Part shown: one piece after another, positions 36,495-57,034 of the stretch
Position numbering within the stretch: position 1 is the stretch's first letter
How the letters are laid out: every line of letters begins with the position of its first letter
Source of the DNA: Vineibacter terrae
GTDB lineage: Bacteria; Pseudomonadota; Alphaproteobacteria; Reyranellales; Reyranellaceae
Assembly (NCBI RefSeq): GCF_008039615.1
Contig: NZ_VDUZ01000050.1
Span: 1-62,205, forward strand
Direction: 5' to 3'
Length of the DNA: 62,205 nt
Position numbers and translations under genes: made by a program
The notes under the pieces: generated by a model
Databases searched by the model: none
Seen by the model: only the letters and a program-made list of their open reading frames with translations
What the model was told of the DNA's origin: nothing

Positions 36495-37580
36495 TCAGGC
36501 CGCCGCCAGGCCGGCCAGCGCCTGCTTCTGGATCTCGACGGCGCGCGGGTAGCAGGCGTCACGCCAATCGTCGCGATCGCAATAGAAGGCGTCGCGCACG
36601 CGCTGCCTGATGGCGCGGCCCTGCTCGGACTGCGGGTCGCCATGGATGTGCAGCCAGTTGTCCGCGATCAGCGCCATGTTGACCTCGTCGGCCGGCAGCG
36701 TGCCGACCTCGATCGCCGAGGCCACGACCACGGCTTCGGGCAGCAGCCGCACGAAGGCCATGCGCAGGTTGCCTTCGATGACCGGCGACTCGCTTTCGCC
36801 GGCGGCGGGCGAGGTGACGGCATCGCCGAACCAGCGCCGCGCCAGCGCCAGCGGCGGCGAGCCGGGCGGATGGCGGCAGATCATCTCGGAGTAGCCGAAC
36901 GGCCCCAGGCCGGTATGGAAGTCGAGCACGCAGACATGGCTGGCGTCTTCCAGGTAGTGCGGCACGATCTTGCCGATGGTGCGGTTCGACCAGCAGGGGC
37001 TGGTGCCGCCGAAGAACAGGCCGTTGGGGTGCGTGCGCTGGCCGGCGACGACCGCCTTGCCGAAGCCGGCGACGCCTGCTTTCGCCACGAACGCCGCCAG
37101 GCCGGCGCGCGTGCGCGCCTCGACCTCGGCGTTCCAGGCTTCGGGCGCCAGCAGGTCGGCGACCTGCAGGTACAGGCCGTTCTCGAACACCGGCCGGCCG
37201 AAATCGATGAAGTTGCGGTTGATGTCGATGTTGTCTTCGTTGACGCGGCGGGTCCAGGAGAAGCCGTAGGGATTGGTGGCATGGACCAGCAGCACGGCGG
37301 TATCGGCCGGCAGGTCCCGGTAGTGGCCCTCGCGCAGGAAGCCGACCTGGCAGCCGCTGCCGTAGTGGCCTTCGACCCCATGGGTGCCCGAGCACGTGAC
37401 CAGCACGCGGCTGGCATCCTTGGGCCCGATCCAGGCCGTGTCCGTTGCCAGCGCCTCGCCCTGCATGCCGCGCAGGTCGTGCGGCCAGCTCTTCACCGCA
37501 ATGCCGGCCTCGCCGCAGGCGGCGCGGAAGGTGTCGCGCGCGCTCTGGTAGTCGGGCGAGAAATGATCGTGATGCGACAT
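36495..37580 (-). CDS. DUF2817 / M14-like metallopeptidase
   Basis: A 361-residue protein. Zinc-ligand regions resemble carboxypeptidase-like M14 enzymes: SGTHGVEGHYGSG (H and E), then NPYGFSWTRRVNEDNIDINR, where Arg and Asn bind substrate carboxylate, and LDFHTGLGPFG (third ligand His). A late Glu in SAIEVGTLP may be the general base. DUF2817 members are annotated as peptidases, but substrates are unknown. It lies next to a peptide ABC transporter, so peptide use is a fair inference. Confidence 0.78.
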   Translation of the reverse strand: MSHHDHFSPDYQSARDTFRAACGEAGIAVKSWPHDLRGMQGEALATDTAWIGPKDASRVLVTCSGTHGVEGHYGSGCQVGFLREGHYRDLPADTAVLLVHATNPYGFSWTRRVNEDNIDINRNFIDFGRPVFENGLYLQVADLLAPEAWNAEVEARTRAGLAAFVAKAGVAGFGKAVVAGQRTHPNGLFFGGTSPCWSNRTIGKIVPHYLEDASHVCVLDFHTGLGPFGYSEMICRHPPGSPPLALARRWFGDAVTSPAAGESESPVIEGNLRMAFVRLLPEAVVVASAIEVGTLPADEVNMALIADNWLHIHGDPQSEQGRAIRQRVRDAFYCDRDDWRDACYPRAVEIQKQALAGLAAA

Positions 37581-37666
37581 CGACCCTCACTGCCGGCGGC
37601 CGCCAGCCCTGCGCCGGGACACGAAGATTAACCACAGAGACGCGGGCGGCACAGAGAAGAAAAGCC

Positions 37667-38662
<996 letters not shown>

Positions 38663-39699: not shown

Positions 39700-40674
39700 T
39701 CAGGGCACGGGATTCCAGCACCGCGCCTGGTGGGCCGGCGCGATCTCCTGCAGGTCCGGCATGGCAGCGCAGGCCGCGACGGCGCGCGTGCAGCGCGGCT
39801 GGAAGGCGCAGCCCTGCGGCAGGCGCAGCGGCGACGGCGCCATGCCGGGGATCTGGAACAGCGCCTGGCCGCGATGGCCGCGTGTCGGCACCGATCCGAT
39901 CAGGCCGTGCGTGTAGGGATGGCGCGGACGCTCGAGGATCTCGGCGGTGGCGCCGTGCTCGACGACGCGGCCGGCATACATCACGGCGATGCGGTCGGCC
40001 AGGCCGGCGACCACGGCCAGGTCGTGCGTGATCCAGATCAGCGCCGTGCCGGTCTCCTGGCAGAGCTTGCGCATCTCGAACAGGATCTGGCCCTGGATGG
40101 TGACGTCGAGCGCGGTGGTGGGCTCGTCGGCGATGATCAGGTCGGGCTTGTTCAGCAGCGCGATGGCGATGGCGACGCGCTGGCGCATGCCGCCGGAGAA
40201 CTGATGCGGATAGCTACGCAGCCGCGCCTCGGGCGAGGGGATGCCGACCTGCGTCAGCGCCGCGACGGCGCGGCGTCGGGCGGTGGCGTCGTCGACAGCC
40301 TCGTGGGCGCGGATCGCCTCGATCATCTGCGTGTCGACCCGCAGCACCGGGTTCAGCGTCATCATCGGGTCCTGGAACACCATGGCGATGTTGCGGCCGC
40401 GCAGCGCCCGCAATCGCGCCGACGATGCCTGGACGAGATCCTCGCCGCGATAGAGGACCTGTCCGCCCACGATGCGGCCCGGCGGATCGATCAGGCCCAG
40501 GATCGAGAAGCCGGTGACGCTCTTGCCCGAGCCCGACTCGCCCACCAGCCCCAGCACCTCGCCGGCGCCGACCTGCAGGTCGACCCCGTCGACCGACCTC
40601 ACCACGCCGTCGCGCGTGAAGAAGTGCGTCTTGAGGTCCGCGAGCTCGAGGGTGGGGCTTGCGGCGTCGCTCAT
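39700..40674 (-). CDS. Dpp/Opp-type ABC transporter ATPase (first, DppD-like)
   Basis: A 324-residue ATPase with Walker A GESGSGKS (45-52), signature [15 protein letters not shown] and Walker [13 protein letters not shown]. The C-terminal [15 protein letters not shown] cluster is typical of peptide-transporter ATPases. It pairs with the second ATPase to drive the DppB/C-like permeases encoded directly upstream (25-bp gap). The start [10 protein letters not shown] is used; sequence further upstream in frame lacks homology. Confidence 0.92.
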
Positions 40675-40699
40675 GGCGCACGTCCGAATGCGCACCGAG

Positions 40700-41632
40700 T
40701 CACCGCGCGTTCCTCGGATTGAGGATGTCGCGCAGATGGTCGCCGACCAGGTTGATGCCGATCAGCGCCATCGCCAGCGCCAGCCCCGGAAACAGCGCGA
40801 TCCAGTACTTGCCCGCCATCAGGAACTCGAAGCCGTTGGCGATCAGCTTGCCCAGCGACGGCTCGGTGACCGGCACGCCCAGGCCGAGGAACGACAGCGT
40901 CGCCTCCAGCGCGATCGCATGCGCCACCTCGACCGTGGCGATCACGATCAGCGGCGGCAGGCAGTTGGGCAGCAGGTGGCGCCACAGGATGCGCCGCCGC
41001 GGCAGCGCCAGGCAGCGCGCCGCCTCGACATACTCCTTCTCGCGCTCGACCAGGGCGGCGGCGCGGGCGGCGCGCGCGAAATAGGCCCATTGCACCGCGA
41101 TCAGGGCATAGAGCACCTTGTCGACGCCCTGGCCGAGCACGGCCAGCAGGATCAGCGCCACCAGGATGGCGGGGAACGACAGCTGGATGTCGACGCAGCG
41201 CATCAGGAAGGCATCGACCCGGCCGCCGAAGAACGCCGCCGTCAGGCCGACCACGGTGCCGATCGCCAGCGCCACCACCACCGACACGGCGCCCACCAGC
41301 AGCGACACGCGCATGCCGTACATCATGGCCGAGAGCATGTCGCGCGCCTGGCCGTCGGTGCCCAGCCAGTAGGTCAGCGTGCCGTCGCTGCTCGCCGAGC
41401 CTGGCGGCATCTTGGAGTCGAAGATGTCGAGCTTGGCGATGTCGTAGGGGTTCTGCGGCGCCAGCCATGGGGCCAGCAGGGCGGCGGCGGCCACCACGAT
41501 CACCAGCACCAGGCCGAACAGGGCCAGCCGGTTGGCGCAGAAATCGGCCATGAAGCGCCGCCACGGCGTCTCGACGGCGGGCGCGGCGCGGCCGGCGCCG
41601 GGCGGCATGTTGTCGGCGGCGGCGTCGGTCAT
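40700..41632 (-). CDS. Dpp/Opp-type ABC transporter permease (DppC-like)
   Basis: A 310-residue inner-membrane permease. An N-terminal transmembrane helix (LALFGLVLVIVVAAAALLAP), a periplasmic loop ending YWLGTDGQARDM and five further helices make up the fold. The EAA loop that docks the ATPase is visible as EYVEAARCLALPRRRILWRH, then LLPN. The gene overlaps the upstream permease gene by 4 bp. It works with the DppB-like protein to form the channel. Confidence 0.92.
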   Translation of the reverse strand: MTDAAADNMPPGAGRAAPAVETPWRRFMADFCANRLALFGLVLVIVVAAAALLAPWLAPQNPYDIAKLDIFDSKMPPGSASSDGTLTYWLGTDGQARDMLSAMMYGMRVSLLVGAVSVVVALAIGTVVGLTAAFFGGRVDAFLMRCVDIQLSFPAILVALILLAVLGQGVDKVLYALIAVQWAYFARAARAAALVEREKEYVEAARCLALPRRRILWRHLLPNCLPPLIVIATVEVAHAIALEATLSFLGLGVPVTEPSLGKLIANGFEFLMAGKYWIALFPGLALAMALIGINLVGDHLRDILNPRNAR

Positions 41633-52134: not shown

Positions 52135-52601
52135 CAACGGCAGCGTGCCGGCTGCGCGATGCGATGCCGGACGACGCCGATGCCATGGCGGACCTGTTTC
52201 TCGCCGCGCGGCGCACGGCCATGCCGTGGCTGGCTGTCGTGCACACCGACGACGAAACGCGCGGTTGGATCGCTCATGTCCTGCTGCGCCAGCGGCGCGT
52301 GCGGATCGCCCAGGCCGATGGCCTGGTCGCGGGTTTCGCCGTGGTCCATGACGGCTGGCTCGACCATCTCTACGTCGCGCCGGCGCATCAAGGCGCCGGC
52401 GCCGGCTCGCGGCTGCTGGAAGACGCCAAGCGCCTGTCGGGCGGGGCGCTGCAGCTTTACGTCTTCCAGCGCAACCAGCGCGCCCGCGCCTTCTACCTGA
52501 ACCGCGGCTTTGTCGAGGCCACGTTCAGCGACGGCGCGAGCAACGAGGAGCGTGAGCCTGATCTCGTGATGCGATGGGTGGCAAGGTCATGCACATCCTG
52601 A
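52131..52601 (+). CDS. GNAT-family acetyltransferase
   Basis: A 156-residue acetyl-CoA-dependent transferase. The order is RLRDAMPDDADAMADLFLAA, VAGFAVVHDGWLDHLYVAPA, HQGAGAGSRLLEDAKRL (pyrophosphate-binding Q-x2-G-x-G/A) and VFQRNQRARAFYLNRGFVEA. The start is a GTG overlapping the upstream stop. The substrate amine is unknown. Its 3' end overlaps the FAD oxidoreductase gene, suggesting coupled translation. Confidence 0.86.
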   Translation: MTTAACRLRDAMPDDADAMADLFLAARRTAMPWLAVVHTDDETRGWIAHVLLRQRRVRIAQADGLVAGFAVVHDGWLDHLYVAPAHQGAGAGSRLLEDAKRLSGGALQLYVFQRNQRARAFYLNRGFVEATFSDGASNEEREPDLVMRWVARSCTS

Positions 52602-53749
52602 TCATCGGCGCTGGCATCGCCGGCCTGGGCGCGGCGTGGGCGCTGGTGCGCGATGGCCATCGCGTGACGGTGCTGGAGCGGGGGCCGATCCCCAATCCGC
52701 GCGGCGCCTCGGTCGACAGCCATCGCCTGATCCGCCGCGCCTATGGCAGCGAGGACGGCTACATGCGCCTGATCACGCATGCGTGCGCCGCCTGGGACCG
52801 CATGTGGGCCGACCTGGGCGTGAAGCTCTGCGTCGATACCGGCGCGCTCTCGACCAGCGCCCGCACCGACGACTGGGTGGCGATGTCCCTGCAGGCGCTC
52901 AAGACAGGCGGGTTCCCCGTCGACGAGCTGGATGCGAAGCGCCTGGCGGAACGCTTTCCGCTGGTCGAGCCGCGCGGCATCGAGGTCGCGTTCTTCTCCC
53001 CGGAGGGTGGCGTGCTGCTGGCCGACCGCATTGTCGCGGCCCTGGCCCGCTGGCTGGCGGCGACAGGTACGCAGCTGCGGCCCGGGACGCAGGTGGTCGA
53101 CATCGATGCCGATGCCGGTGCCGTGACCCTGGCCGATGGCGAGCGTCTGGCGGCTGACCTCGTGCTGGTGGCCGCCGGCGCCTGGGTGGCGATGCTGGCG
53201 CCCGGGCTGGCGGCGAAGGTCGAGCCGTCGCGCCAGGTGCTGGCCTATGTCGACCTGCCCGACGACCTGGCGCGGGCCTGGGCCACGCATCCGTCGCTGC
53301 TCTGCGTCGAGCGTGCGGAGGGCTTCTACCTCGTGCCGCCGGTCGTGGCGCCGGACGGCACCCGGACCCGGCTCAAGATCGGCGATCATCTCTTCAGCCG
53401 GACGGGCGATCCCGAGGCGGATCCGCGCGTCGCCGGCGCCGAGGAGACCCGGGCCGTGCTCGAGCAGGCACGCGGCCGGCTGCGCCATCTGGAGCGCTAC
53501 CGCCTGGCCGAGGGCAAGGTCTGCTACTACACCGTCGACCGCCGGCCGGGGCATGAGACCTTCCAGTCGCTGCCCTTGGGCCGGTCGGCCTGGGCGATGT
53601 CGAACTGCTCCGGCCACGGCTTCAAGTTCGGCGCCTGCCTCGGCGAGGCCTTCGCTGACATGGTGGCGGGACGATCCAGCCCCGACGCCTTCACGAAGTA
53701 CGCCGCCGGCGCAGCATCTGTCGTTCCGAGCGAAGCGAGGAATCTTTAA
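52589..53749 (+). CDS. FAD-dependent oxidoreductase, DAO family
   Basis: About 386 residues. It begins with the dinucleotide motif HILIIGAGIAGLGAAWALVR and has a DAO-type substrate domain and the C-terminal FAD motif SNCSGHGFKFGACLGEAFAD, as in sarcosine-oxidase-like enzymes that oxidise secondary or tertiary amines. ATG 52589 and ATG 52574 are both possible starts. The last residues (SVVPSEARNL) are encoded by a family A half-repeat at 53718-53747, so the natural C-terminus was probably extended or replaced by the repeat. Confidence 0.83.
   Translation: MHILIIGAGIAGLGAAWALVRDGHRVTVLERGPIPNPRGASVDSHRLIRRAYGSEDGYMRLITHACAAWDRMWADLGVKLCVDTGALSTSARTDDWVAMSLQALKTGGFPVDELDAKRLAERFPLVEPRGIEVAFFSPEGGVLLADRIVAALARWLAATGTQLRPGTQVVDIDADAGAVTLADGERLAADLVLVAAGAWVAMLAPGLAAKVEPSRQVLAYVDLPDDLARAWATHPSLLCVERAEGFYLVPPVVAPDGTRTRLKIGDHLFSRTGDPEADPRVAGAEETRAVLEQARGRLRHLERYRLAEGKVCYYTVDRRPGHETFQSLPLGRSAWAMSNCSGHGFKFGACLGEAFADMVAGRSSPDAFTKYAAGAASVVPSEARNL
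53718..53747. repeat. Family A half-repeat within the end of the FAD oxidoreductase gene
   Basis: CTGTCGTTCCGAGCGAAGCG and the AGGAATCTT after it match the left arm of family A with several changes. The second arm is missing. It encodes VPSEARNL and the stop codon of the gene. Confidence 0.75.
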
Positions 53750-54223: not shown

Positions 54224-55348
54224 ATGGCAACCAGGAAGCGCGGCGGCACCGGGCCCGTGGCGGAGCCAATAATTCCACCGGGCGAAGCCACGCCTCCCGA
54301 CGAATTCCGTTCGTTCATGGTCGCCTTGGCCACCGACCCCGCCAAACTTGGCGCGTTCATAAAGGATCCCGACGGCACGATGCAGGCAGCCGGCATCAGC
54401 GACGTCGATCAGGTGATTTTGAAGAGTGGCCACCCCTGGGCAATCCATGGGCGCCTTAGCGGGCAGAAATATACTTTTACCCCGCCGTCGCCGGCGACCC
54501 CGGTGACGGTTCTCGTTGTCGACATGACCAAGCCACCGGGCGCCGACCAGGCCGCCGCTGCAGACGAGCCGGCCGTGCGCGCTCAACCTGCTTTCACAAC
54601 ACCGCCGAGCCAAGGGAGTGCGGCCATGTTTCCTAACATTCCGCAGCAGATCTTCCCGCAAGTGCATCCGCAGATTTTCCCGCAGGTGCATCCACAGATT
54701 TGGCCGCAGGTCCACCCACAGGTGGTGGTCCACCCGCAGGTCTGGCCGCAGGTGCACCCGCAGCTGGTGGTCCATCCGCAGGTCTGGCCGCAGGTGCACC
54801 CGCAGCTGGTGGTCCATCCGCAGGTCTGGCCGCAGGTGCACCCGCAGCTGGTGGTCCATCCGCAGATCTGGCCGCAGGTGCACCCGCAGCTGGTGGTCCA
54901 TCCGCAGATCTGGCCGCAGATCCACCCGCAGCTGGTCGTCCATCCTCAAGTGCATCCGCAGCTAGTCCAGCCGAATGCCGCCTTGCCTCAGTTCCCGCAA
55001 CTGGTCCTGCATCCGCAGGTCCATCCGCAGATCTGGCCGCAAGTGCATCCGCAGGTGGTGGTGCATCCGCAGATCTGGCCGCAAGTGCACCCGCAGCTGG
55101 TGGTGCATCCGCAGATCTGGCCGCAGGTGCATCCGCAGGTGGTGGTGCATCCGCAGATCTGGCCGCAGGTGCATCCGCAGGTGGTGGTGCATCCGCAGAT
55201 CTGGCCGCAGGTGCATCCGCAGGTGGTGGTGCATCCGCAGATCTGGCCGCAGGTGCACCCGCAGCTGGTGGTCCACCCGCAGATCTGGCCGCAGGTGCAT
55301 CCGCAGCTGGTCACGCCGCCACCGGCGACCCCGGGAACGCCGGGTTAG
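54224..55348 (+). CDS. Split-borosin-type precursor with leader domain and long HPQ/WPQ repeat core
   Basis: A 374-residue protein. Residues 26-80 (from DEFRSFMVALATDPAKLGAF through IKDPDGTMQAAGIS) resemble the helical borosin-binding (LigA-like) domain of discrete borosin precursors such as SonA, which docks the methyltransferase. After a Pro/Thr/Ala-rich linker (85-133), residues 144-361 are a tandem-repeat tail of the form HPQLVVHPQIWPQV, with 13 WPQ, 30 HPQ and two FPQ. The next gene encodes a borosin-like N-methyltransferase. I infer a RiPP precursor whose repeat tail is the methylated core. No signal peptide. GGGAG precedes the ATG. The RiPP role is inferred from the leader and neighbour. 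Confidence 0.8.
   Translation: MATRKRGGTGPVAEPIIPPGEATPPDEFRSFMVALATDPAKLGAFIKDPDGTMQAAGISDVDQVILKSGHPWAIHGRLSGQKYTFTPPSPATPVTVLVVDMTKPPGADQAAAADEPAVRAQPAFTTPPSQGSAAMFPNIPQQIFPQVHPQIFPQVHPQIWPQVHPQVVVHPQVWPQVHPQLVVHPQVWPQVHPQLVVHPQVWPQVHPQLVVHPQIWPQVHPQLVVHPQIWPQIHPQLVVHPQVHPQLVQPNAALPQFPQLVLHPQVHPQIWPQVHPQVVVHPQIWPQVHPQLVVHPQIWPQVHPQVVVHPQIWPQVHPQVVVHPQIWPQVHPQVVVHPQIWPQVHPQLVVHPQIWPQVHPQLVTPPPATPGTPG
54653..55306 (+). repeat. 42-bp tandem repeat array encoding the core of the precursor
   Basis: The unit is 42 bp (14 codons). Two blocks of six and seven Trp-containing units (Trp codons from 54701 to 54911 and from 55034 to 55286, each exactly 42 bp apart) are separated by a degenerate linker containing NAALPQFPQ. 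The first copies have a shorter 8-residue period (IFPQVHPQ). Units are nearly identical in DNA as well as protein, with synonymous CAC/CAT changes, consistent with recent expansion. Because the unit is a multiple of three, other frames are also open here and give long false reading frames. Confidence 0.92.
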
Positions 55349-55460
55349 CACAAACCGGATCGCTTGGTTTGCCAACGCCATCCGAGGCCATGCCAGCCGC
55401 GGATGGACAGGTCGGAGCGACAGCGCCCGAGGCATTCGAGCACCGAACAGCGGAGCTACC

Positions 55461-56372
55461 ATGGCAGTCGAGACGAACGGCAGCAGCAACGAACCGGCGC
55501 CACCGGGGCTCGCAGGAATCCCAGGCCCGCCCCACGGCAACGGCGCCAACGAGAAGCGGAATGGCTCGCTCATCGTTGTCGGCACGGGCATCCGTACCGT
55601 CGGCCATCTGACGGTGGAGGCCGTCGCCTGGATCAAGCGGGCGGACAAGGTGCTGTACGTCGTCGGCGACCCTGTGGCCGAATTGATGCTCAAGGAGCTC
55701 AATCCCGCGGGCGCCGAGTCGATGACCGGCATGTATGCCGAAGGCAAACCGCGGATCGATACCTACAACGAAATGGTGGAACGCACGCTTGCATGCGTGC
55801 GCGCGGGCCTGGTGACCTGCATGGCCTGTTACGGCCATCCGGGCGTCTTCGTCTATCCATCGCACGAGTCGATACGACGCGCGCGTGCAGAAGGGTTCAG
55901 CGCCCGCATGCTGCCGGGCATCTCGTCGGAGGACTGCCTGTTCGCCGACCTCGGCGTCGACCCGGGCATCAATGGCTGCCAGTCCTACGAGGCGACGGAT
56001 TTCCTGGTCAACTGCCGGGTCATCGATCCCAGCAGTTCGGTCGTGCTCTGGCAGATCGGCGTCGTCGGCGACGCGACTTTCAAGCCCTATGGCTATGATC
56101 TGTCGGCCATGCCGTTGCTGATCGAGCGGCTGCTGTCGATCTATCCGCCGACCCATCCCATGTATCTGTATGAGGCAGCGGTATTCCACGGCTGCGAGCC
56201 GGTCATTCGCCAGATCACGGCCGCGGAACTGGCCTATGGGCCGCTATCGGCCGGCAATACGCTCTACATCCCGCCGGCATACATGCGCACCGCCGACCCG
56301 ACGACCTACCTGCGGATGAATGCCCTGATCGCCGCGAGCAAGGCGGCGTCCGGCGCGACAACCGCCCGGTAG
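55461..56372 (+). CDS. Borosin-type peptide backbone alpha-N-methyltransferase (tetrapyrrole-methylase fold)
   Basis: A 303-residue SAM-dependent enzyme, close to the split-borosin methyltransferase SonM and the methylating domain of OphMA. After a Pro/Gly-rich N-terminal 34 residues come GSLIVVGTGIRTVGHLTVEA, ADKVLYVVGDP, KPRIDTYNEMV (R98, Y102), CYGHPGVFV (Y124) and ARMLPGISSEDCLFADLG, then DPGINGCQSYEATDFL. R98, Y102 and Y124 match OphMA Arg72, Tyr76 and Tyr98, needed for amide N-methylation. It should methylate backbone amides in the core of the precursor encoded 112 bp upstream. GGAG lies 5 nt before the ATG. There is no fused core peptide, so this is the discrete type. Confidence 0.87.
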   Translation: MAVETNGSSNEPAPPGLAGIPGPPHGNGANEKRNGSLIVVGTGIRTVGHLTVEAVAWIKRADKVLYVVGDPVAELMLKELNPAGAESMTGMYAEGKPRIDTYNEMVERTLACVRAGLVTCMACYGHPGVFVYPSHESIRRARAEGFSARMLPGISSEDCLFADLGVDPGINGCQSYEATDFLVNCRVIDPSSSVVLWQIGVVGDATFKPYGYDLSAMPLLIERLLSIYPPTHPMYLYEAAVFHGCEPVIRQITAAELAYGPLSAGNTLYIPPAYMRTADPTTYLRMNALIAASKAASGATTAR

Positions 56373-56392
56373 GACAGGACGACGGTCAGGCC

Positions 56393-57034
56393 GTGAAGCG
56401 CGCAGCGCGCAACACCGCGGCGGTGCATCGCCCACCAATACACGGGCCGCTGGTGAACCCCTATGGTGCGTTCTTCGGCGCCTTGCCCCCGTCCTGCCGG
56501 CGCGTCCCATCGGCGCCGTTGTCGGCATCCGAATCGGCGCACGCCGACTGGCTGACCTGGAAATCGGCGATCGCACGGCACTTCGCGTGGGCGGTGCCGA
56601 CGGACGAGGCGATCGCGACCATAGCTCGCTACGCAACCGACGTGGTCGAAATCGGCGCCGGGAGCGGCTACTGGGCCTGGCTGATGCGACAAGCCGGCAT
56701 AACCGTCGCCGCGTTCGATGATGAGCCTCCGGCTTTCACCTGGAGTGACGTCGCCCAGGGCGACGAACGTGCGATACTCGACCGCCGCGACAGCACGCTG
56801 TTCCTGTGTTGGCCGCCCTGGGGCACGGCCATGGCAGTCAACGCCCTCGCCCTCCATCGCGGAGACTACGTCATCTACGTCGGCGAATGGATGGGCGGCA
56901 GCGCCGATGCGCGGTTCTTCGCGCTGCTGGCGGCACAGTTCGAGGCGATCGACGGCGTCGCGATCCCGCAATGGTACAACCGCGACGACCGCCTGTTCGT
57001 ATTCCGGCGACGGGATCCGCAGCCGCGCTCATGA
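56393..57034 (+). CDS. Class I SAM-dependent methyltransferase in the borosin-like cluster
   Basis: A 213-residue protein. SAM-binding motif I is VVEIGAGSGYWAWLMRQAG (84-102), motif II has AAFDDEPP, and LFLCWPPWGTAM (137-148) lies at motif IV, where N-methyltransferases often carry (N/D)PPY. A GTG start follows 20 nt after the methyltransferase stop, so it is co-transcribed. The target may be side chains of the same precursor, such as Gln, His or Trp, but this is only inferred from position. The N-terminal 45 residues are Pro/Arg-rich. No precise family assignment. Confidence 0.68.
   Translation: MKRAARNTAAVHRPPIHGPLVNPYGAFFGALPPSCRRVPSAPLSASESAHADWLTWKSAIARHFAWAVPTDEAIATIARYATDVVEIGAGSGYWAWLMRQAGITVAAFDDEPPAFTWSDVAQGDERAILDRRDSTLFLCWPPWGTAMAVNALALHRGDYVIYVGEWMGGSADARFFALLAAQFEAIDGVAIPQWYNRDDRLFVFRRRDPQPRS

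Follow-up and report, generated by a model that had tools for sequence, protein, structure and literature searches.

A predicted split-borosin cassette in Vineibacter terrae

Three adjacent genes of Vineibacter terrae are held with good confidence to form a split-borosin cassette, which would work by docking of a precursor leader on a separate methyltransferase and stepwise methylation of the peptide backbone. Split borosins are an established RiPP class, and this assignment, already made in the original prediction, is supported by the enzyme sequence, by a leader profile built without SonA-like rows and by the leader fold. As judged by sequence comparison and modelling, the cassette combines an enzyme and a leader of the borosin families, intact catalytic residues and a conserved three-gene unit. 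By analogy with SonM–SonA, the five-helix N-terminal domain of the precursor would dock on the methyltransferase; the docked leader would feed the uncharged C-terminal portion into the active site with its bound SAM, for methylation of successive backbone amides. That backbone methylation occurs is, on the same analogy, highly probable. To our knowledge, borosin enzymes are among the few routes to backbone N-methylation of ribosomal peptides. EreM provides another, according to excerpts of PMC11285071.

Gene layout and genomic setting

The cassette lies on the forward strand of the window, the whole 62,205-nucleotide stretch that was analysed (contig NZ_VDUZ01000050.1). The precursor gene (P0001, 374 amino acids; 54,224–55,348, + strand) is an open frame with homologues directly upstream of the enzyme gene in three related loci (L011, L012 and L013). 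It is followed after 112 nt by P0002 (303 amino acids; 55,461–56,372, + strand), a borosin-type peptide backbone N-methyltransferase as judged from PDB matches and invariant catalytic residues, and after a further 20 nt by P0003 (213 amino acids, GTG start; 56,393–57,034, + strand), a second, class I SAM methyltransferase by its homologues in the same place, its match to phrog_19090 and a Rossmann-type model. The open-frame check agreed with the coordinates and features originally given for all three genes; further long open frames across the repeats of the precursor gene are by-products of the tandem array. Promoter and terminator scans gave nothing informative.

Six flanking genes were typed, and no protease or exporter gene was found among them, as originally predicted, a result that counts against the split-borosin reading. 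The same prediction had also excluded an adjacent oxidase, and this part did not stand: the next gene upstream (52,574–53,749, + strand, 474 nt away) encodes an FAD-dependent oxidoreductase (PF01266, E 2e-45). This gene is probably unrelated to the cassette, since the three relatives do not share it. Elsewhere in the window, open frames at 37,445–38,656 and 39,730–40,722 are 44% identical over 245 amino acids, with antisense frames matching too, and are perhaps a duplicated gene pair.

The enzyme P0002

The sole Pfam match of P0002 above cut-off was PF00590 (E 6.7e-21); the V. terrae genome (8.76 Mb, 135 contigs) holds four PF00590 regions, and that of P0002 scores weakest. When P0002 was searched against PDB sequences, all 25 distinct chains found at E<=0.001 were borosin enzymes, the best matches being dbOphM (3.8e-60), OphA (about 3e-57), SonM (about 3e-53) and MroMA (1.5e-51). 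Residues Y92, R98, Y102 and Y124 were invariant in a 12-row alignment, the rows of which were picked from proteins that later supplied the 34 rows of the tree. Mapped via the SonM-like row L033, these residues correspond to SonM Y58, R67, Y71 and Y93, named as catalytic in the excerpted account of SonM (PMC8429565). The uniformly borosin PDB matches and the agreement with SonM uphold the original reading of P0002 as a borosin methyltransferase; Arg98, Tyr102 and Tyr124 had been numbered correctly, and Y92 was added by the 12-row alignment as a further conserved tyrosine. Replacement of one catalytic tyrosine by Thr89 had been considered and was dropped, alignment A5 showing a length difference there with the tyrosine at Y92. 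In the 34-row tree, which holds the window's enzyme twice (as P0002 and L034), P0002 clusters with the enzymes of L011–L013 and, with support of 94/92, with those of L006–L008 from the same bacterial family.

The leader domain of the precursor

The borosin-binding (leader) domain was placed at residues 26–79 of the precursor (54,299–54,460, + strand) from profile searches, helices, fold matches and conservation, with 34 of 54 positions invariant across the four cassettes. A search of the PDB with the single leader sequence gave no convincing match and no borosin entry, and a profile built from the four cassette leaders only likewise returned no borosin entry; both results were counted against the split-borosin reading. 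Profile A4 was built from eight rows, comprising the four cassette leaders and the precursors of L006–L009 from the same bacterial family, without SonA-like rows. With this profile SonA took the first seven of 22 matches (E 0.008–0.0095); 14 of the other 15 were fused borosin chains (dbOphMA, E 0.22; OphMA, E 1.0–1.2), the sole non-borosin match being an acetyl-CoA acetyltransferase (E 0.93). An eleven-row profile with SonA-like rows reached SonA at E 1.8e-16, a value that is not independent because those rows were inside it.

The leader-like domain originally proposed at residues 26–80 was resolved by structure prediction into five helices (27–37, 39–47, 49–56, 60–68 and 71–78), with a mean pLDDT of 86–93 over residues 31–80 and low confidence past residue 90. 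Foldseek gave 75 matches to the leader model at E<=10, and all 50 of those listed were SonA or fused borosin enzymes; the E-values were weak (0.12 to 0.67, none reaching 0.001), which counts against the assignment. Against 7ltr_I, 50 columns were aligned with an rmsd of 1.3 and a TM-score of 0.84 by target length. This fold evidence is not fully independent, because SonA-like rows were present in the alignment behind the model. A match of the leader to IniB_NTERM (E 7.1e-6; 25.9 bits, the cut-off being 40) was discounted, since all 50 listed fold matches are borosin structures. The SonA binding domain is a five-helix bundle of residues 1–53, with a core at 62–71, in the parts of PMC8429565 consulted. 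Profile and model together identify residues 27–78 of the precursor as its predicted borosin-binding domain.

Conservation and distribution

The genome_contigs collection was scanned with short exact P0002 patterns, a procedure that detects close relatives only, and three loci were found with enzymes 85–87% identical to P0002. All three are from metagenome-assembled genomes, labelled Burkholderiales (L011), Bradyrhizobium (L012) and Phenylobacterium (L013), and the homologous operons sought in the original prediction are thus at hand: each has a precursor upstream (leader 60–70% identical) and a P0003 homologue downstream (64–67%) in the same order and strand, with gaps of 62/62, 109/40 and 54/25 nt, respectively. 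The whole window was compared with these loci of 11.9–12.8 kb (flanks up to ~6 kb) using frames of at least 80 amino acids and E<=1e-8, and only the three cassette genes, or other frames inside them, were shared. Because the same three-gene order recurs while no other neighbour is shared in the stretches compared, the third gene belongs to the unit. Transfer of the cassette between distant groups seems likely from these sequences, although bin labels can err.

More broadly, searches for a borosin enzyme, with the window's genome counted every time, gave 5 of 75 genomes within the family, 4 of the 385 covered for the class and 15 of the 398 for the phylum; the order-level search gave one genome more than the family search. 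Plasmid records yielded 13 matches to the enzyme, all below 60% identity, and a scan of viral_contigs gave one pattern match and no relative.

The third gene, P0003

No Pfam match above cut-off was obtained for P0003, a single one lying below it (PF13489, E 0.003). It was matched by phrog_19090, a family with no assigned function (E 4.3e-35), and was modelled as a Rossmann-type methyltransferase (mean pLDDT 75), which together substantiate the further methyltransferase proposed 20 nt downstream of P0002 as a class I SAM enzyme. The best Foldseek match reached a TM-score of 0.45 only, and the predicted fold gave no pointer to a substrate. Relatives of P0003 were found in 15 phage records, including PhiCh1, phiH and HGTV-1, and the family is thus also present in haloarchaeal viruses; in PhiCh1 the related gene comes after a putative N4-cytosine methyltransferase. 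The motifs GAGxGYWAW and LCWPP were invariant in the four proteins compared, two from cassettes and two from viruses. Among bacteria, the family search returned the third gene from the window's own genome only (1 of 75), and the class-level search from two of 385 genomes; the second of these, G271, does not belong to the four that carry a borosin enzyme, and it encodes a more distant protein, with GAGNGTWSM and GWPP.

On balance P0003 probably modifies the same precursor. PP-aromatic motifs are a mark of enzymes that act on the planar nitrogens of amino or amide groups, and because of this motif only, the Gln side chain of the PQ units in the precursor tail was considered as a target; that side chain, or a freed terminus, is only a guess. 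An extra class I methyltransferase is tied to a borosin in a second case, at L010 (2256–3485, − strand), where a 410-residue protein beside a borosin enzyme combines a PRMT-like methyltransferase (PRMT_C, E 9e-14) with a C-terminal borosin-binding domain (351–403), after which the tail is very short.

Candidate substrates in the precursor

The repeat tail occupies residues 135–374 (54,626–55,345, + strand), where tandem-repeat and composition analysis delimited [HWFY]PQ[VIL] units without K, R, D or E. Tandem Repeats Finder reported a 42-bp period in 15.0 copies (86% matches, score 755), and the 13 full 14-residue units differ mainly at synonymous sites (pS 0.27, pN 0.045), a ratio that fits selection on the protein sequence, with the reservation that copies of one array are not independent. 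Tetrapeptides of the form [HWFY]PQ[VILF] account for 77% of the 240 residues here, 76% of 111 in L011, 68% of 142 in L012 and 73% of 99 in L013; the aromatic residue is mostly W here, Y in L011 and F in L012 and L013, and K, R, D and E are absent from all four tails. Since the units vary mostly synonymously and tails of the same kind occur in three other genomes, the tail is far beyond chance, and the originally noted repeat is a real 42-bp array. The repeat DNA (54,786–55,271) also matches short stretches of trbL from a Bartonella krasnovii plasmid (11% of the query, 75.9% identity), probably through chance similarity of repeats.

By analogy, the chances lie slightly in favour of this xPQ-hydrophobic tail being a main methylation substrate. 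Two features were counted against it: the tail begins about 58 residues past the binding domain, far beyond the SonA core distance, and Pro stands at 3 of 14 unit positions. Proline has no amide proton and hence undergoes no backbone N-methylation, which leaves no more than 11 methylatable positions in a 14-residue unit.

Between leader and tail, all four cassette precursors align in a segment LVVD[M/L]x[R/K]PxGA (residues 94–106; 54,503–54,541, + strand), delimited from this alignment and its position after the binding domain. LVVD[M/L] lies near the place of the short SonA core and resembles residues 62–65 of SonA (YLVI), of which L63 and I65 are methylated according to the excerpted PMC11285071. 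Methylation may start at LVVD[M/L] or be confined to it, and such a proximal, SonA-like core has to be weighed seriously against the tail, or alongside it, as substrate. In its strict form, where this short segment is the true core and the tail stays unmethylated with a role of its own, e.g. as a secreted or metal-binding polymer, the proposal is the less likely one, though it keeps an appreciable chance. A comparable hydrophobic run of at least four residues lies 8–15 residues past the domain in 5 of 14 other binding-domain proteins from borosin loci (L019, L024, L027, L033 and L035), and 16–19 residues past it in the cassettes; the remaining nine have no such run there, L009 having one 32 residues past the domain and the other eight a shorter, interrupted or absent one. 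The linker is moreover longer than that of SonA, and the tail, an uncharged stretch with many V, I and L residues, could plausibly be a substrate in its own right.

It is unlikely that the precursor is a multi-core one, from which an unlinked protease (a prolyl oligopeptidase, for instance) would release many short N-methylated peptides. The 14-residue units are regular, a single Peptidase_S9_N gene is present on a different contig of the genome, and at another borosin locus, L036, a prolyl oligopeptidase gene lies close by; against this, there is neither a spacer nor a constant cleavage motif between units, the units of L013 are irregular, no protease is linked to the cassette, and PF02897 also occurs in 5 of 14 control genomes. 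Also unlikely is a product that acts whole rather than as a small released peptide: an encoded, uncharged polymer of ~240 residues, its backbone densely N-methylated between regularly placed prolines and methylated further by the third enzyme (e.g. at Gln side-chain amides in the PQ units), serving as protease-resistant material or as a metal-binding polymer. That P0002 is an ordinary tetrapyrrole-type methylase standing beside a repeat protein by chance, with no RiPP made, is very improbable and was rejected, for although PF00590 is its sole Pfam match above cut-off and seven tetrapyrrole-type NCBIfam models (cobI/YabN-type ones among them) match it, all score far under their cut-offs (at best 31 against 525 and 23.8 against 163), whereas its PDB matches are all borosin, Y92, R98, Y102 and Y124 are invariant, SonA leads the leader profile, the leader fold matches borosin structures and the gene set is kept as a unit in relatives; the tetrapyrrole assignment that the original prediction had named as its refutation was thus not found.

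For the split-borosin reading, a natural substrate built of 13 near-identical 14-residue units would show over what distance from its docking site a leader can direct methylation, and how regularly spaced prolines are handled by a borosin enzyme. The four cassettes differ in the main residue (W, Y or F) at one repeated position and amount to a natural mutation series; their conserved second methyltransferase is a specific candidate for adding another modification to that peptide.

Comparison with known systems

Split borosins of types IV–X are described in the available portions of PMC11395268 and PMC11285071, and by Figure 1 of the former the cassette is class 3, with binding domain and core in one protein and the enzyme separate. 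In the type IV split borosin SonM/SonA of Shewanella oneidensis (PMC8429565, excerpts), the enzyme is likewise separate, the binding domain is an N-terminal five-helix one and the catalytic residues align. SonA has 71 residues and one short core, whereas the Vineibacter precursor carries a 55-residue linker and a 240-residue repeat tail, and its cassette, unlike SonM/SonA, has a conserved third gene. The fused OphMA, dbOphMA and MroMA hold a methyltransferase homologous to P0002 over about 260 residues, followed by a region resembling the Vineibacter leader; there a single chain comprises enzyme, leader and core, whereas the Vineibacter system is split.

The nearest non-cassette enzymes in the tree (62–65% identical) are those of L006–L008, short split-borosin loci of the same family. 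Their binding-domain gene is directly upstream of the enzyme, as in Vineibacter, but their precursors have 75 amino acids and no repeat tail, and those genomes are without a third-gene homologue. Two loci of the same class encode fused borosin-like proteins with C-terminal tandem repeats (L014, 1459–3117; L015, 1456–3150), in which a borosin enzyme and a binding-domain match precede the repeats, as the binding domain does in the Vineibacter precursor; these repeats are of acidic ELNDAA or EQHxxEQH types, not xPQ. Because of these two proteins, repeat tails as such are not unique. On a plasmid of Bradyrhizobium sp. 155, L036 (4004–8744) holds two borosin-type enzymes, a binding-domain precursor, a TauD/TfdA dioxygenase and the prolyl oligopeptidase gene. 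The phrog_19090 proteins of PhiCh1, phiH and HGTV-1 share GAGxGYWAW and LCWPP with P0003; unlike P0003, the virus genes had no borosin gene beside them in the two stretches inspected.

An xPQ tail on a split borosin was not found in the literature listings, abstracts and excerpts consulted, a set outside the primary surveys of bacterial split-borosin types (Imani 2022, Cho 2022, Lee 2024) and their tables of types V–X. The enzyme class of the Vineibacter cassette is a known one, and its xPQ tail together with the extra methyltransferase gene looks like an uncharacterised variant of it.
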